Below, in pieces: positions 13,368 through 26,040 of a stretch of 64,000 bases of DNA (position 1 is the stretch's first letter; every line of letters begins with the position of its first letter). The DNA comes from Deltaproteobacteria bacterium (GTDB taxonomy: Bacteria; Desulfobacterota; Binatia; DP-6). The DNA lies in contig VBKF01000093.1 in assembly GCA_005888095.1 (NCBI GenBank), forward strand, positions 1-64,000. Reading direction: 5' to 3'. Under the pieces are notes generated by a model. It did not search any database. It saw nothing but the letters and a program-made list of their open reading frames with translations, and was not told the DNA's origin. Both the position numbers and the translations under genes were made by a program.

Positions 13368-16016
13368 CTACGGCGCCACCTGGAGGAGCACGGCGGGCCG
13401 CTGCCCGCTGCTCTCGCGGGAGTTGTACTTCACCCCGTTGATCGACGTGCTGTCCAGGGCGAAGCAGTAGACCCCGTCCCCGGTGATCGCCGAGGTCACG
13501 TCGAAGGTCACGACCTGGCCCGGCTGCACCGGCCCCACCGTGGAGAGGACGGCGCCGTCGATCACGGGGCGGTTCCGCCAGGTCGTCGTGAGCTCGCTCC
13601 AGCCGCAGGCGCTGATCCGATGGATGCGGCCGCCCGAATCGCCCCCGGCGTTGAAAGCGCTCGCCACCTGCAGCTGCAGGCGGGCGGACACCACGGGGCG
13701 CGTTCCGACGCCGCTGACCCTCACCCGGAAGTACGTCTGCTCCCGCTTCGTCGCCTGACCGCTCGCGTCGAGCACCGCGTTGCTGCCGAAGCTGACGTCC
13801 GGATTCTGCTCGTGCACCTTCACGTCGGCCTCGACCGTCCCCACCGCCCCGGCCTGCGCCACGGTGCTCGTGGTGGTCGAGGTCGTCGTGGTGGTGCTGG
13901 TCGTCGACGAGCTCGTCGTCGGCACGGTGCTGGTCGAGGACGAGGTGCTGCTCGTCGGGGTCGTGGGCGCCGTGCTGCTGGTCGACGTCGACGTCGTCGG
14001 CACCGTGCTGGTCGAGGAGGTGGTGCTGCTCGTCGAGGTCGTGGGCGCCGTGCTGCTGGTGGACGTCGTCGTCGTGGACGTGGTGCTCGTCGTGGTCGTC
14101 GGAGCCTGCAGCTCGATCTCCAGCTCGGGCCGTTCCACCTGGTTCAGATCCTCGCGTGAGGCGTACGTCGCCCCTGCGGTCGTGTCGTTCCTGATCGCCA
14201 AGGTGTAGACGCCGGGGCCAGCCTGCAGCGCGGCCGTCACGTCCACGCTCACGTCCTGCCCGACGAGCACGCCGCCGAGCCACGCGATCGGCCGCGTGTA
14301 GTCCGGGACGAACGGGGAGGCATCGTGCGCGTCGACCTTCCCGTCGAGGTTGGTATCGACGTCCGACCATTTGAGACCGGGGCCGCTCGCGCTGCCGACG
14401 CCGCTCCCCTCCGCCCAGCTCGAATTCGGCACCGGGTAGATCGTCCCGCCGTCGCTCGAGGCGTTGGTGCAGTGAAGCTTGAGCTTCGCCGCGACGACGG
14501 GTCGGGTCACGGCGGAGAGGTCGAACTTGAGGTAGGCGATATCGGCCGGCGCCAGGTCCACGTCGACGTGGTCGGACGCGCCGTGATCCGCCGTCGCCTG
14601 GGCGCCCGCCTGGATGTAGGTGTCCGCGACGGGAGCGAGGCGCAGGACCTGCGACGAATCGCCGCAGCGGCAGTCCGTAAGGCAGAGGCCGGGGCAGCCG
14701 GCGTCGTCGTGGCCGTCGCACGCCTCGGTGGTCTGGTCGAGGCGGTCGTCGCCGCAGACCGGCGCGCAGGTGCAGTCCGCGGCGCACGGCCCCGGACACG
14801 CCACGTGGTCGAGGCCGTCGCACTGCTCGCCGGGCTGGTCGACCAGGTCGTCGCCGCAGCGGGGCGGCGGCGCGGTGCCCTTGACGAGCGTGATGGCGTC
14901 ACGGATGGCGCCGTCCTCGCGCACCATCTGCTCGATCAGCCGGCCGCCGTCGACCGTCACCCGGGTGAAGTGGAAGGCCGACTCGGCGTAGGCGGTGAAG
15001 CTGCTCGCGCCGACGGGGCGGAGCTGGTCGCCGCCGCCGCCCGTGGTGACGTACACCGTGCCGGCGCCCGGCTGGACCGCGACGTTGTTCCGCAGCGGCT
15101 TGGTGCGCTCGTAGTCGTGATCGTCGCCCATGAACACCATGTCGACGCCGTACTTGTCGAAGAGCGGGACGAGGTTCGCCCGCACGGTGAGGTCGCTGCC
15201 GTGGCTGCCGCTCGAATAGATGGTGTCGTGGAAGGCGACGAACTTCCAGGTGGCCGTGCTGGTGCGCAGGTCGTTGTCGAGGAACGTGTGCTCGGCGCTG
15301 CCCGGGCTGGTGCTGGCATTCGTGTCCAGCACCACGACGTGCGCGTTGCCGAAGTCGAAGGAATAGTAGTTCTCGGACCGGGCCGGGTTGTTGGCCGGCG
15401 TGTAGAAGGTGCTCCGCCAGGCGGCGCCCCCGTCGGCGCGGACGTCATGGTTGTCGATGGCGGGCCAGATGACGAGCCGGCGGAGCAGCGTGCGGTATGG
15501 CGTGAAGAAATCGGGGTCGTAGTTGGCGCCGAGGCCGCCGCCGATCATGCCGCCCGTGTGCAGGACGAAGTCGACGGGCGTCGCATACATGGCGTTACGC
15601 AGGGCCAGCCCGGGCAGGCAACCGCCGCAGCCCGACTCTCCCATCACGAGGAAGGTGAAGGGCAGGGTCGGGTGGTCGGTCTCGAAGACCTCCTCGCCCG
15701 CGAGCGCCACGCCGTCGGCCTGCGGGGCATAGGCGTATCGCGTGCCCGGCACCAGGCCGTCGGCGCGGATCGCGCAGACGGTCCCCGTGCTTCCCGCGAT
15801 GACCGTCGGCTGCCCGCCCTCCGGCCGGACGTCGAGGGAGCAGGCCGCGGGCGCGTCCGTGTCCCAGACGACGGTGACGCCGTGCGTGCTCTCGAGCTGC
15901 AGATATGGTCCGCGGGTCAACGTCACCGCGCCGGCCGGGGCCGCCATCAGCAGCGCCGCGGCGACGAGGCCGCGGAAGCTTCCGCGGGTGATCCTGCCCT
16001 CATGTCGGAACGTCAT
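13368..16016 (-). CDS. Secreted modular protein with degenerate metallophosphatase domain
   Basis: 882-residue exported protein. The signal peptide (LVAAALLMAAPAGA) is followed by a purple-acid-phosphatase-like N-terminal domain and a calcineurin-like fold (about 118-400). Two Cys-rich repeats follow (CGDDLVDQPGEQCDG and CGDDRLDQTTEACDG), then a DNRLRE/CBM96-like domain holding an EF-hand-like loop (DTNLDGKVDAHD), a Thr/Ser linker and a second DNRLRE-like domain. Several phosphatase metal ligands are replaced: GESG for GDSG (E127), HTGG for HTGD (G156) and GDDH for GHDH (D298); N189, H190 and H263 remain. Catalysis is therefore doubtful. The ATG at 16016 has AAGGAG 9 bp upstream. A sigma-54 type promoter lies at 16058-16073. 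Probably a surface or matrix protein. Confidence 0.85.
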   Translation of the reverse strand: MTFRHEGRITRGSFRGLVAAALLMAAPAGAVTLTRGPYLQLESTHGVTVVWDTDAPAACSLDVRPEGGQPTVIAGSTGTVCAIRADGLVPGTRYAYAPQADGVALAGEEVFETDHPTLPFTFLVMGESGCGGCLPGLALRNAMYATPVDFVLHTGGMIGGGLGANYDPDFFTPYRTLLRRLVIWPAIDNHDVRADGGAAWRSTFYTPANNPARSENYYSFDFGNAHVVVLDTNASTSPGSAEHTFLDNDLRTSTATWKFVAFHDTIYSSGSHGSDLTVRANLVPLFDKYGVDMVFMGDDHDYERTKPLRNNVAVQPGAGTVYVTTGGGGDQLRPVGASSFTAYAESAFHFTRVTVDGGRLIEQMVREDGAIRDAITLVKGTAPPPRCGDDLVDQPGEQCDGLDHVACPGPCAADCTCAPVCGDDRLDQTTEACDGHDDAGCPGLCLTDCRCGDSSQVLRLAPVADTYIQAGAQATADHGASDHVDVDLAPADIAYLKFDLSAVTRPVVAAKLKLHCTNASSDGGTIYPVPNSSWAEGSGVGSASGPGLKWSDVDTNLDGKVDAHDASPFVPDYTRPIAWLGGVLVGQDVSVDVTAALQAGPGVYTLAIRNDTTAGATYASREDLNQVERPELEIELQAPTTTTSTTSTTTTSTSSTAPTTSTSSTTSSTSTVPTTSTSTSSTAPTTPTSSTSSSTSTVPTTSSSTTSTTTTTSTTTSTVAQAGAVGTVEADVKVHEQNPDVSFGSNAVLDASGQATKREQTYFRVRVSGVGTRPVVSARLQLQVASAFNAGGDSGGRIHRISACGWSELTTTWRNRPVIDGAVLSTVGPVQPGQVVTFDVTSAITGDGVYCFALDSTSINGVKYNSRESSGQRPAVLLQVAP
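13861..14101. repeat. Low-complexity Thr/Ser-linker coding repeat
   Basis: Degenerate GTG/GTC-rich sequence encoding a Thr/Ser/Pro linker of about 80 residues on the minus strand. A longer unit encoding TSSTAPTT and TSTVPTTS occurs twice. It is a hinge between two DNRLRE-like domains, not an intergenic repeat. Confidence 0.8.
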
Positions 16017-16057
16017 CTTGCGCATCTCCTTCGGGCGGCGTCGGCCGCTGCGGCTAC

Positions 16058-16073
16058 AGCAACCCCGGTGCCG
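16058..16073 (-). promoter_or_regulatory. Sigma-54 (-24/-12) promoter of the pseudo-phosphatase gene
   Basis: On the minus strand the sequence reads CGGCAC-CGGGG-TTGCT, with exact GG-N10-GC spacing. It differs from the TGGCAC-N5-TTGCT consensus only at the first base. The predicted start leaves about a 30-nt leader that contains the AAGGAG of the gene. Confidence 0.75.
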
Positions 16074-16268
16074 CCCCCGCACCGCCGTCCGCGCGAGCGT
16101 TTCACGCTCGGCCACCGCGCGCGGCTGGGTGATGCGACGCAGCAGGCTGGGTGGTTTCAACCGCGGCGGGGCGGCGTCGGCGACCGGCTGGGGAAACGCC
16201 TAGGGGGTTTTCCCAAATTGCGGTGATGGCACCCGGGCGAGTAGAGAACGCCGCAGCGAGTGCTGCAG

Positions 16269-17657
<1,389 letters not shown>

Positions 17658-20254: not shown

Positions 20255-22663
20255 TCACGCCGCCGGCAGCTCGACGACGAAGCGCGCGCCGCGCCGCTCG
20301 GCGGCTTCCACCGTGATGGTTCCGCCGTGGCGCTCGATGATCTTCCGCACGACGGCCAGTCCGACGCCCGTCCCCGTCGACTTGGTGGTCATGAAGAGCT
20401 GGAAGATCCGCTGGCGCATCTCGGGCGCCACGCCAGGACCCGTGTCGGTCACGCCGAGGCGTACGCGTCCGAGTCCGTTGCCCGACGCCGCTGCGCTGAT
20501 CGTGATCCGGCCACCTGCTCCCGTCGCCTCGATCGCATTCACGACCAGCTCCTGGAGCGCCTGGCCGAGGTGCGAGGGATCGGCCCGCACGAGCGGCAGG
20601 TCGGCGGGCACGTCGAGCTCGACGGTCACGCCCCCCGCCTCCAGGCGGGGCGCCAGCGTGCGCAGCAGCCCGTCGATCAGCGCCGGCAGGTGGGTCGGCT
20701 CCACCCTGGGCTCGAACGGTCGCGTGAAGTCGAGGATGCCCCGCACGTGCGCCTCGAGCTTGTCCACCTCGAGGAGGACGTCCTGCAGGTTCTCGTGCAC
20801 GGGGCTCTCGGGAGCGGTGTGCTCGAGCGCGAGCTGGGCGGCGAGGCGGATGCCCGCCAGGGGGTTGCGAATGCCGTGCGCCACCGCCGCCGACAGCTCG
20901 CCGACGGCGGCCAGACGCTCCGCCCGGGCGAGGCTCTCCTGAGCCTCGCGCAGCTCCTCGAGCGCCGCCGCATTGGCGAGCGCGATCGCCGTCTGGTTGG
21001 CGAGCGTGCCGAGCACGTCCATATCGTCGGCGGAGAAGGGCCGGCCGGAGGCCTTGCCGCCGACGGCGAGCAGTCCCGCGGGACGGCCCTGGCGAAGCAG
21101 GGGAACGAGGAGTGTGGCGCCGAGCGCATCGAAGAGCGCCCGCAGGGCGTCCCGGTGCCGCCACAGCCGCGCGGACTCCTCCACCTCGTCGCGCGAGAGG
21201 ACGCCGCCCCTCGCCTCGAAGACCGCGAGCCCCGGCGCCCCGGCCGCAATGCGCCGGACGCCGGCCGACCCACCGCGCCGCACGAGGGCGTCGTCCTCGC
21301 GCTCCCAGAGCGTCGCCCCCTCGATGAAGAGGACCTCGCGGAGCGCGGTGAGCAGGTGCTGCACGATCGCGTCGCGGTCGAGGAGCGTCGTCATGCGCTC
21401 GCTCGCCCGGGCGACGGTGTCCTTGTAGTCGACGCGGCCACGGTAGAAGAGGCGGTCCACCGCGCGCTGCACACGGTCGCGCAGCGGGACGACCGTCGCC
21501 AGCGCGACGAGCACGAACGCGATCGGAAAGACCGCGCTGCGCGACGACACGAACCCTGCGGCCAGGCCGTCGGCGACCAGCAGCGCCCCCGCGTATGCCA
21601 GCGAGACGAGCGCCGTGATCACCGCATAGACGAGCGCCTGCTTCACGAACCGGTCGGCCTCGAACAGGTCGTGGCGCGCGATGGCGTAGCCGATGGAGAG
21701 CGGGAAGAGGAAGCCGCTCAGCGTGAGGAGGTTGAAGGAGACCGACCGCCCGAACAGGAAGAAGGCGAGGAGGCCCAGCACCGGGGCCAGGAACGCGACG
21801 ATCGCGCCGGTCAGGACGACCCGGGCGCGGCGGCGGGCGAGCGGCGTTCCGCCGCGCACGGCCGCGACGGCGACCGAGACCATCCCCGCGAGCGATGCCG
21901 CCGCGATCGCCAGGAAGGCGGCCTTGTTCAGGAAGAGCAAGCCGGCGTAGGCGCGCCGGAACATCCAGACCTGGGCCAGGCCCGCGGCGAGGCCCGGGGC
22001 GTAGAGCCACACGAGCGGCCGCCCGCTGCGCGCGATCGGCGGGCGCGGCTCGGGGACGGTCAGCGCCAGGTGCAGGATGGCGGCGGGCGCGAGCGCCTCG
22101 AGGACAAGCGCCAGGGCACCGAAGCGGCCCGCCGTGAAGAGGTCCAGGTCGAGCAGCAGGTAGAGTCCCCACACGACGCCGAAAGCGAGGAGCGCCCGGC
22201 TCTGCCGCGACTCGGGCTTCAGGTAGAAGACCGCCAGCCCCACCGCCAGGAACGCCAGGCCGTTGAACGCGTAGACGCCGAGCGTGGCGACGTAGTCCCG
22301 CGCGGTGAACACCATGGACTGGACGGTGCGGCGCTCGCGCCGGCCGGGACGCTCGAAGACGAACTCGTGCGGCGTACCGGCGGGAACGGCCCCGACGAGC
22401 CTCTCCACGTCCGCGCGGGACGTCACGGCCCGACCGTCCACGCTCTTCACCCGCCCGCGGAACGGGACGCCGGCCGCGATGCCCGTCCAGCTCGGTCGGC
22501 CGAGCGGGACGACGAACAGGTTGTCCCAGACGATGAAGCCGGGAAAGGTGCGCCCCACGAAGGCCAGCGACCCCACGACGGCCGTGGCGGAGAGCGCGAC
22601 GGTCGCCAGTGAGAGCGCCAGGAACAGGACCGCGTCGGCGCGGCGTGGGAACCGGCTCATCAT
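20255..22663 (-). CDS. Membrane sensor histidine kinase, paralogue of 2504-4999
   Basis: 802-residue inner-membrane sensor kinase with the same layout as the kinase at 2504-4999. It has an N-terminal helix, a PDZ-like loop (GVPFRGRVKSVDGRAV), about eight further helices to about residue 340, a GAF domain, HisKA with His596 (AAVAHGIRNPLAG) and HATPase_c (ELVVNAIEATG, DTGPGV, GTGVGLAV). Gly follows the His where Glu is usual (HExxNP). Phosphotransfer can still occur in such variants, but phosphatase activity may change. The start ATG overlaps the radical SAM stop by 4 bp, so the two are coupled. The convergent sigma-54 regulator at 16269 or the lone receiver at 25675 is the likely partner. Confidence 0.93.
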   Translation of the reverse strand: MMSRFPRRADAVLFLALSLATVALSATAVVGSLAFVGRTFPGFIVWDNLFVVPLGRPSWTGIAAGVPFRGRVKSVDGRAVTSRADVERLVGAVPAGTPHEFVFERPGRRERRTVQSMVFTARDYVATLGVYAFNGLAFLAVGLAVFYLKPESRQSRALLAFGVVWGLYLLLDLDLFTAGRFGALALVLEALAPAAILHLALTVPEPRPPIARSGRPLVWLYAPGLAAGLAQVWMFRRAYAGLLFLNKAAFLAIAAASLAGMVSVAVAAVRGGTPLARRRARVVLTGAIVAFLAPVLGLLAFFLFGRSVSFNLLTLSGFLFPLSIGYAIARHDLFEADRFVKQALVYAVITALVSLAYAGALLVADGLAAGFVSSRSAVFPIAFVLVALATVVPLRDRVQRAVDRLFYRGRVDYKDTVARASERMTTLLDRDAIVQHLLTALREVLFIEGATLWEREDDALVRRGGSAGVRRIAAGAPGLAVFEARGGVLSRDEVEESARLWRHRDALRALFDALGATLLVPLLRQGRPAGLLAVGGKASGRPFSADDMDVLGTLANQTAIALANAAALEELREAQESLARAERLAAVGELSAAVAHGIRNPLAGIRLAAQLALEHTAPESPVHENLQDVLLEVDKLEAHVRGILDFTRPFEPRVEPTHLPALIDGLLRTLAPRLEAGGVTVELDVPADLPLVRADPSHLGQALQELVVNAIEATGAGGRITISAAASGNGLGRVRLGVTDTGPGVAPEMRQRIFQLFMTTKSTGTGVGLAVVRKIIERHGGTITVEAAERRGARFVVELPAA

Positions 22664-24022: not shown

Positions 24023-24038
24023 TACAAGAGCCGTGCCA
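24023..24038 (-). promoter_or_regulatory. Candidate sigma-54 promoter before radical SAM/kinase genes
   Basis: On the minus strand it reads TGGCAC-GGCTC-TTGTA. The -24 block is perfect, but the -12 GC is GT, so it may be weak. The start codon lies about 48 nt downstream. Confidence 0.45.
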
Positions 24039-25571
24039 AGCTCCTTAGAGAGAGAGCATCCATTCAGCGCCGGATCGGCGCTGGCTCTCGCCGCGCTCGC
24101 CGGCGTCCTCCATGGCGCTTGCTTTGCGCCGCTCGGGGTCTGGCCCTTGAGCTTCGTTGCGCTGGCGCCGCTCGTTGCGGCGACGCGGGGACGTCGCCTG
24201 GCGGCTGGTTTCGGCCTCGGATGGCTGACCGGCACGGTGGCGCCGTCGATCGCCATCGTCCCGTGGGTCGCCGCCGCCACCCGTGACTACTTCACCCAAG
24301 GCTCGCTCGGCGCGACGCTCTTCGCGCTCGCCGTGACCCAGGTGATGGGCGCGCTGCCCGCCGCCGCGTTCGGCGCCGCGCTCTCCCGCCTCTCCGCTCT
24401 CCGCTCGGGCTGGGCGCGCGTGCTCGCCGCCGCCGCCTGCTGGACGGCGCTCGAGTTCGCCCGCGCGCGCGCGCTCGGCGCGCCCTGGGATCTCCTCGCC
24501 CACGCGCTCTACGCGCACCCGCTCTGGATCCAGACGGCGGAGCTCGGCGGGGCCTTCCTGGTCTCGTTCGTCGTCGCGGCGGCCGCAGCCGCCGCGGCCG
24601 AGGTGCTGGTCGCGCCGTCGAAGCAGGCGTTCTCCGCCGCCGCGGTCGGTGCGGGCCTGATCGCGCTCGCCGCGGGATACGGTGCGATGCGGTTGCAGGC
24701 GGTGCGGGACGGTGGCGGGCCGACGCTCCGCGTGGCGCTCGTGCAGGGGAACGCCCCGAACGCCTGGCGTCTCGACGTCGCGCGCGCCGACGACGCGCTC
24801 AGGGCCTTCGCGGACGCCACCCGCCGCGCGATGCGCGGCCGTCCCGATCTCGTCGTCTGGCCCGAGAACGCCGTGAGCTTCCTCCTCGCACCGAACCCGC
24901 AGCTCGGCCGCGCCGTCGGCGATCTGGTCGGACCCGACGGCCCGCCGCTGCTGGTCGGAGGACCGCGCTACGCGCCGGCCGGCGAGGGCCGCGTCCGCTT
25001 CTTCAACTCGGCCTACCTCCTCTCGCCGCGCGGCGACCCGCTGGCTTTCTACGACAAGCGCCGCCTCGTCCCGTTCGCCGAGTACGCGCCGATCGCGCAC
25101 GTGCCGGGACTCGGCTGGCGGTTCGACGCCCCGGGCGAGTACACCCCGGGCGCGACGCCCACGGTCTTCACGCAACCGGACCGCTTCGGCGTCCTCATCT
25201 GCTTCGAGGCGATCTATCCGGAGCTGGCGCGCGACCTCGTGCTCGCCGGCGCGCGGCTGCTGGTGAACGTCTCCAACGACGCCTGGTTCGGCACCTCGGC
25301 CGGTCTCGAGCAGCACTTCGCGATGACCGTGTTCCGCGCCGTCGAGACGCGGCGCGCCGTGGCGCGGGCGACGAACACGGGGATCACGGGCCTGGTGGGG
25401 CCGTCGGGTCGGATCCTCGCCCGCTTCCCCACGGGCGTCCGGGACGCCTGGGTGGTCAGCGCCCCCCTGCGCGACGAGGTCACGCCGTATACGCGCCGCG
25501 GCGACGCGTTCGCCTGGCTCGCGACCGTGGCGGGGCTGCTGGCGCTGCTCGGCGCAAGACGAAGCCGCTAG
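24033..25571 (+). CDS. lnt: Apolipoprotein N-acyltransferase, copy 2 (canonical)
   Basis: 512-residue inner-membrane enzyme that N-acylates lipoproteins. The N-terminal hydrophobic half has about six helices. The nitrilase-type domain has Glu in VVWPENAVSF, Lys in YDKRRLVPFAEYAP and Cys in VLICFEAIYPE. The following LVNVSNDAWFGTSAGLEQH and ATNTGITG motifs are canonical, so this copy is probably the housekeeping Lnt. The start is GTG 24033; no ATG precedes the first helix. It is divergent from the radical SAM gene (56 bp between starts). The lone receiver gene follows 103 bp later. Confidence 0.93.
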   Translation: MPSSLEREHPFSAGSALALAALAGVLHGACFAPLGVWPLSFVALAPLVAATRGRRLAAGFGLGWLTGTVAPSIAIVPWVAAATRDYFTQGSLGATLFALAVTQVMGALPAAAFGAALSRLSALRSGWARVLAAAACWTALEFARARALGAPWDLLAHALYAHPLWIQTAELGGAFLVSFVVAAAAAAAAEVLVAPSKQAFSAAAVGAGLIALAAGYGAMRLQAVRDGGGPTLRVALVQGNAPNAWRLDVARADDALRAFADATRRAMRGRPDLVVWPENAVSFLLAPNPQLGRAVGDLVGPDGPPLLVGGPRYAPAGEGRVRFFNSAYLLSPRGDPLAFYDKRRLVPFAEYAPIAHVPGLGWRFDAPGEYTPGATPTVFTQPDRFGVLICFEAIYPELARDLVLAGARLLVNVSNDAWFGTSAGLEQHFAMTVFRAVETRRAVARATNTGITGLVGPSGRILARFPTGVRDAWVVSAPLRDEVTPYTRRGDAFAWLATVAGLLALLGARRSR

Positions 25572-25646
25572 GGTCTTGGGGCGCAGCGCTGCGCGAGATG
25601 CCCCAGGCTGTCCCCAGTACAAGCACGGGAATCCGCCTAGTCCATG

Positions 25647-25662
25647 TGGCACTCCCCTTGCT
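25647..25662 (+). promoter_or_regulatory. Consensus sigma-54 (-24/-12) promoter
   Basis: TGGCAC-TCCCC-TTGCT matches the RpoN consensus fully, with GG-N10-GC spacing. It lies in the lnt-receiver gap. The GC is only 14 bp before the receiver GTG, so a transcript from it would be nearly leaderless. Confidence 0.8.
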
Positions 25663-25674
25663 CACCCGAAAGTC

Positions 25675-26040
25675 GTGGCTCGCCGGATACTCATTCTCGA
25701 GGACGAGAAGCTGCTCACGAAGCACCTGGCACGGCTCTTCGCCGCCCGGGGCTACGAGGTGCAGACGGCCGCCACGGTGGCGAGCTTTCTCGCCATCGCC
25801 CGGGGAGAACGCTTCGAGACGCTGCTGCTCGACCTCCACCTCCCCGACGGCGACGGGCTGGACGCCTGGGCCCGGGCCAGGGGCATGCAGGCGGGCGCGC
25901 GCGCGGTTCTCATGACGGCCCACGGCAGCGCCGACGTGGCGGTGCGGGCGCGGGACCTCGGCATCCACGCCATCCTCTCGAAGCCGCTCAACCTCTCCCT
26001 CCTGCTCGCCTCGGTCGGGGACGCGGGGCGGAATGCCTGA
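25675..26040 (+). CDS. Stand-alone receiver domain (CheY/Spo0F-like)
   Basis: 121-residue protein made only of a response-regulator receiver domain. The acidic pocket is EDE (residues 9-11), phospho-acceptor Asp53 lies in LLLDLHLPDG, Thr in MTAHGS and Lys in LSKPLN. No output domain follows, so it would act as a phosphorelay intermediate or protein-binding switch. It most resembles the receiver of the sigma-54 regulator at 16269 (DLxLPDGxGLD), which hints that it arose from such a protein. GTG 25675 opens VARRILILEDE with no spare residues. A perfect sigma-54 promoter lies immediately upstream. The kinase at 20255-22663 is a possible donor. Confidence 0.88.
   Translation: MARRILILEDEKLLTKHLARLFAARGYEVQTAATVASFLAIARGERFETLLLDLHLPDGDGLDAWARARGMQAGARAVLMTAHGSADVAVRARDLGIHAILSKPLNLSLLLASVGDAGRNA

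Follow-up and report, generated by a model that had tools for sequence, protein, structure and literature searches.

A conserved sigma-54 promoter predicted to yield a near-leaderless mRNA for a lone receiver protein

The window, which is the whole 64,000-nt stretch of DNA analysed from a little-studied soil bacterium, contains a gene for a single-domain receiver that is likely to be served by a functional, conserved sigma-54 promoter, with a transcription start (+1) about 2 nt before the GTG start codon and leaderless or near-leaderless translation, as one case of a lineage-wide layout. Sigma-54 is silent until an ATP-driven activator opens the polymerase. Sigma-54 promoters are known and leaderless genes are known, and it is the pairing of both that is unusual; leaderless genes with sigma-70-type -10 boxes have been described in bacteria.

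A perfect match to TGGCAC-N5-TTGCW, TGGCACTCCCCTTGCT, lies on the forward strand at positions 25647-25662, and its GG and GC, read from the sequence, are spaced as in -24/-12 promoters. The features of the promoter and its gene are as follows.

25647..25652, forward strand: -24 element TGGCAC, by direct reading; unchanged in four of four orthologues.
25653..25657, forward strand: 5-nt spacer TCCCC; one of five columns invariant across the four orthologues.
25658..25662, forward strand: -12 element TTGCT, by direct reading; unchanged in four of four orthologues.
25671..25675, forward strand: predicted transcription start, best guess 25673, placed by the usual spacing from -12 to +1.
25675..26040, forward strand: lone receiver gene (PF00072), GTG start, 121 aa; start from a codon-only gene finder, GTG in four of four orthologues.
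25627..25643, forward strand: block GGGAATCCGCCTAGTCC just upstream of the -24 element; in the alignment, nearly unchanged in three genomes of the same genus and mostly lost in the fourth.
25600..25605, forward strand: conserved hexamer GCCCCA, some 70 nt upstream of the predicted +1, a possible activator half-site; present in four of four orthologues.

The motif ends 12 nt before the receiver GTG (25675-25677); the original prediction had given 14 bp, and its short distance holds although its figure does not. By convention the GC of the -12 element occupies -13/-12, which sets +1, and on this count transcription is predicted to begin near 25673, so that roughly 2 nt of leader would precede the GTG, in agreement with the near-leaderless mRNA first proposed. 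Inspection of the sequence between the sigma-54 motif and the GTG revealed no TANNNT, and the 18 nt before the GTG contain no Shine-Dalgarno (SD) site. This is the only perfect sigma-54 match within the window. With up to two mismatches allowed, the window holds 15 matches against 13.65 in shuffles, a count close enough to chance that only the perfect match stands out.

The genome to which the window belongs (G000; 5.46 Mb, 271 contigs) possesses one rpoN, represented by one Sigma54_DBD match, and its enhancer-binding proteins include activators at 16260-17657 of the window and in L046. It contains 32 perfect sites versus 2 for a reversed-pattern control, and seven genomes of the family together contain 165 versus 15. 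When up to one mismatch is allowed, the own-genome count is 184 versus 183 for the reversed control, and so only perfect sites are informative there; one-mismatch sites were dropped as additional promoters, having no excess over the control. The latter equality is the point that favours a chance match at 25647-25662 devoid of promoter function, and yet that explanation is highly improbable given the excess of perfect sites and the invariance of the motif in all four orthologues while its spacer has diverged.

Close orthologues of the receiver are present in four of the seven family genomes, own genome included, with identities of 81, 81 and 67%. Both the motif and its distance from the gene are kept in all four (motif-to-GTG 12, 12, 12 and 13 nt), which is the conservation among relatives that the original prediction had proposed to check; its full sigma-54 consensus is likewise confirmed, as a perfect match backed by the genome-wide excess and by the orthologues. 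Invariant columns number 11 of 11 in the motif, 1 of 5 in the spacer and 31 of 92 in the other intergenic positions (Fisher p 2e-5, four orthologues). Because only one spacer column is invariant, it is the motif and not the whole stretch that is conserved. Among the relatives in named genomes one locus is close (L121, 82%); the others, at 41% identity or below, were left out of the promoter conservation.

The receiver protein matches PF00072 at residues 5-114 (Pfam, E 8.3e-20) and nothing else; lacking an output domain, it is a single-domain response regulator of 121 aa, as had been claimed. D10, D53, T81 and K103, which we take to be the phosphorylation residues, are all present. Its best solved-structure relative is an NtrC-family receiver (1zit, E 3.5e-13), and it also matches Spo0F and DivK. 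Single-domain response regulators such as Spo0F, DivK and lone NtrC-like receivers share PF00072 alone and the phosphorylation residues, whereas the present receiver differs from them in its own sigma-54 near-leaderless promoter and in having close orthologues in only four of seven family genomes. By these sequence criteria the GTG start at 25675 is sound: the domain begins at residue 5, the four orthologues agree, and a gene finder using codon statistics alone, with neither promoter nor SD input, picked the same codon. A true start further upstream, which would place the motif inside coding sequence, draws on the receiver frame being open back to a TTG at 25576, but it is very doubtful given that codon-only choice, the absence of a conserved protein in the upstream frame, and locus L005, in which that frame is out of register with the motif and runs into a stop codon roughly 40 codons upstream.

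The gene and its three orthologues all start with GTG and do not follow the AUG preference seen in E. coli, which is no defining feature of leaderless mRNAs. In E. coli, start codons other than AUG reportedly work poorly on leaderless mRNAs (PMC3616915), and by analogy the GTG would count against leaderless translation of the receiver. Its retention in four orthologues hints at a deliberately low output or at a lineage with other start preferences.

The position of start codons relative to perfect sites was counted across the family, where 59 ATG lie 9-16 nt beyond the motif, peaking at 12-13 nt, versus about 11 expected from ATG frequency, and 6 lie at 0-8 nt; these are counts of matches, so that one site can give two, and the figure is 59 or 60 depending on how overlapping matches are listed. 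Restricting the set to one genome per genus gives 44 ATG at 9-16 nt for 116 sites versus 7.7 expected. Of the 32 own-genome sites, 12 carry ATG in this 9-16 nt interval, and the five rearranged ATG triplets and CAT that served as controls (TGA, GAT, TAG, AGT, GTA and CAT) are found in it at 3, 5, 0, 1, 2 and 5 sites. Read from sequence, about one third of perfect sigma-54 sites in the family thus put a start codon at or within a few nucleotides of the predicted +1. The suggestion that so short a leader is unusual for sigma-54 genes is therefore not supported for this lineage, in which it is common (13 of 32 own-genome sites; 59 matches for 165 family sites).

A wider sample of the class (145 genomes, 17 families) was subject to the same count, comparing ATG at 9-16 nt with ATG at 1-8 nt. 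Only three families pass correction for 17 tests, namely f1 (60 vs 6), f7 (31 vs 5) and f10 (19 vs 3), two of them families other than that of the window. A fourth, f6, is suggestive (14 vs 3, p 0.0064) but fails the correction, and f2 has no spacing peak (39 vs 35). A class-wide peak was accordingly rejected, three of 17 families being significant. Across 24 genomes of other groups ATG occurs 27 times at 9-16 nt and 29 times at 0-8 nt for 173 perfect sites, a comparison of limited power and a weak control, as the reversed pattern gives 86 sites (a roughly twofold excess) and matches are often due to chance.

Start codons for the 32 own-genome sites were chosen by hand from coding frames. They separate into a close class of 13 sites, whose starts (11 ATG and 2 GTG) follow the motif by 9-16 nt, and a far class of 13 sites, where this distance is 28-63 nt. 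An SD-like 4-mer is found in 11 of 13 far leaders and in none of the 13 predicted close leaders of 0-6 nt. Two further sites, with starts at 17 and 22 nt, are intermediate and lack an SD, and four (L046, L052, L054 and L225) were left unclassed, L225 being SD-led by eye. Protein evidence for the close starts comes from two prepilin-type N termini, one of which (PilX_N) is below the Pfam cut-off, and from a FlgE/F/G-type rod protein that begins at the expected point; the N termini used here are those we presume for prepilins and such rod proteins.

Leaderless translation seems to be a general habit of this genome, which the sigma-54 regulon would share. Among 220 first-in-operon genes (about 464 kb of the own genome), a strong SD 4-mer precedes 20.9% versus 11.4% in an upstream control stretch, so that SD use is weak yet not absent genome-wide, and in the same genes TANNNT shows enrichment at 12-19 nt ahead of the start. 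Such a pattern is described as a sigma-70 leaderless signature (PMC3160421), and leaderless genes of the sigma-70 type also look common in this lineage. A general habit of this kind leaves less surprise in the single receiver gene and more in the regulon.

The genes behind the own-genome sites encode FliK, a FlgE/F/G-type rod protein, prepilins, an ammonium transporter, kinases, two lone receivers and secreted proteins, and, judged by their predicted products, fit a sigma-54 regulon of typical targets. A functional split is visible by eye, with signalling genes leaderless and secreted ones SD-led, but it has exceptions: the small helix-turn-helix (HTH) gene L047 is SD-led and its relatives L056 and L224 are not, and the pilin gene L041 is leaderless whereas L055 is not. 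We tentatively propose, as a possibility well short of an even chance, a regulon with two modes in which the position of +1 sets the mode of translation. In these lineages, a single promoter type and activator system would feed two kinds of mRNA: one SD-led, which in the own genome would serve mainly transporters, secreted proteins and a pilin, and one leaderless, which there would serve mainly proteins of signalling and assembly, for example receivers, histidine kinases, FliK and PilX-like proteins. The leaderless arm might confer weak or stress-proof translation on regulators, among them a lone receiver with feedback onto sigma-54 activators.

For the receiver itself, a bacterial enhancer-binding protein would open sigma-54 (RpoN) polymerase at 25647-25662, the polymerase would start about 2 nt before the GTG, and a ribosome would load at the 5' GUG of the near-leaderless mRNA, presumably in 70S-type translation. 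A start at that point leaves no room for an SD on the receiver mRNA; most other own-genome sigma-54 sites would keep a longer leader with an SD. The nearby genes that bear on its expression and possible partners are as follows.

24033..25571, forward strand: lnt, apolipoprotein N-acyltransferase (PF20154 and PF00795), upstream neighbour, start at 24033 or 24237.
20255..22663, reverse strand: GAF histidine kinase, a candidate kinase, encoded between the activator gene and lnt (PF00512 and PF02518, part of the gene).
16260..17657, forward strand: NtrC-type response regulator and sigma-54 activator, candidate partner (PF00072, PF00158 and PF02954).

With lnt on the same strand across a gap of 103 nt, and the lnt-receiver order kept in four of four genomes, the sigma-54 promoter could be real but minor, the receiver being expressed mainly from a longer lnt-receiver mRNA or an undetected sigma-70 start and not leaderless in practice. 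This is unlikely, as no SD precedes the GTG to serve a long mRNA and as the sigma-54 motif has persisted with its spacing in a gap that has otherwise diverged. The preferred reading, a sigma-54 promoter with a near-leaderless message, also bears on the proposal that the receiver sits under the same sigma factor that its relatives activate. Its best own-genome paralogue among the matches listed is the receiver of the NtrC-type activator (35% identity), which lies 9 kb upstream, and the GAF histidine kinase lies 3 kb upstream. Of two same-genus genomes, G001 keeps both the activator and the kinase; G002 keeps the kinase in the stretch examined, along with an activator-type frame at a matching distance. 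The receiver could reasonably serve as a phosphate sink or shuttle that acts upon sigma-54 activators, and feedback on sigma-54 regulation is plausible.

The present sites resemble classical sigma-54 (-24/-12) promoters, to the extent that the survey in PMC3162934 describes them, in identical consensus and spacing, the presence of rpoN and activators, and similar target genes. That survey reports sites 0-200 nt from the translation start, plotted in 100-nt bins, a resolution at which a start codon at +1 would go unseen, whereas the present sites show a sharp peak at a distance of 9-16 nt past the motif. Leaderless genes led by TANNNT in Actinobacteria and Deinococcus (PMC3160421, PMC12340547) likewise combine a fixed short promoter-start distance, no SD and a leaderless message, but their promoter element is a sigma-70 -10 box some 12 bp before the start, unlike the activator-dependent sigma-54 element of the receiver gene. 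The words 'sigma54' and 'RpoN' are absent from the main text of PMC3160421, and according to a 2016 transcription start site (TSS) study, leaderless genes had no specific promoters described for them (PMC4842269). Titles and abstract openings listed by literature searches yielded no report of sigma-54 leaderless genes as a group or regulon; such genes may sit in TSS tables. If sigma-54 commonly makes leaderless mRNAs, tightly switchable, SD-free messages could be built, and, since the true start may be a codon 12 nt downstream of TTGCT, the annotation of sigma-54 gene starts in these genomes would have to be revised. The spacing is a sequence-only rule that can be tested by RNA sequencing.

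Several other sites were observed. Within the window, a one-mismatch site, CGGCACCGGGGTTGCT, at 16058-16073 on the reverse strand lies about 32 nt before a CBM96/metallophosphoesterase gene (13368-16025, reverse strand) oriented divergently to the NtrC-type activator at 16260; one-mismatch sites are at chance level overall. The second lone receiver, of 156 aa, has a perfect site 14 nt before its ATG (L036; G000:C91:156123-156138, reverse strand). At L054 (G000:C163:32164-32179, forward strand) a perfect site away from any near gene start has a strong G+C hairpin (GAAGACCTGGCCGCG...CGCGGCCGGGTCTTC) no more than about 100 nt downstream, possibly marking a sigma-54-driven small RNA. The genes behind the sites at L033 and L050 share the N terminus MDVAAILQALLGAGAP; Pfam identifies one as FliK and matches nothing in the other, and they are possibly two flagellar hook-length genes. 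Small Xre-like HTH proteins lie behind perfect sites at L056, L047 and L224 and in family genomes, some near-leaderless and one SD-led, and the spacer GTCGG recurs at several sites across genomes. At L058-L061 and L225, in the own genome, perfect sites with SD leaders precede genes for secreted proteins, a number of which have disintegrin-like or DUF4215 matches; among these sites, contig C228 carries three perfect sites inside 1.5 kb.
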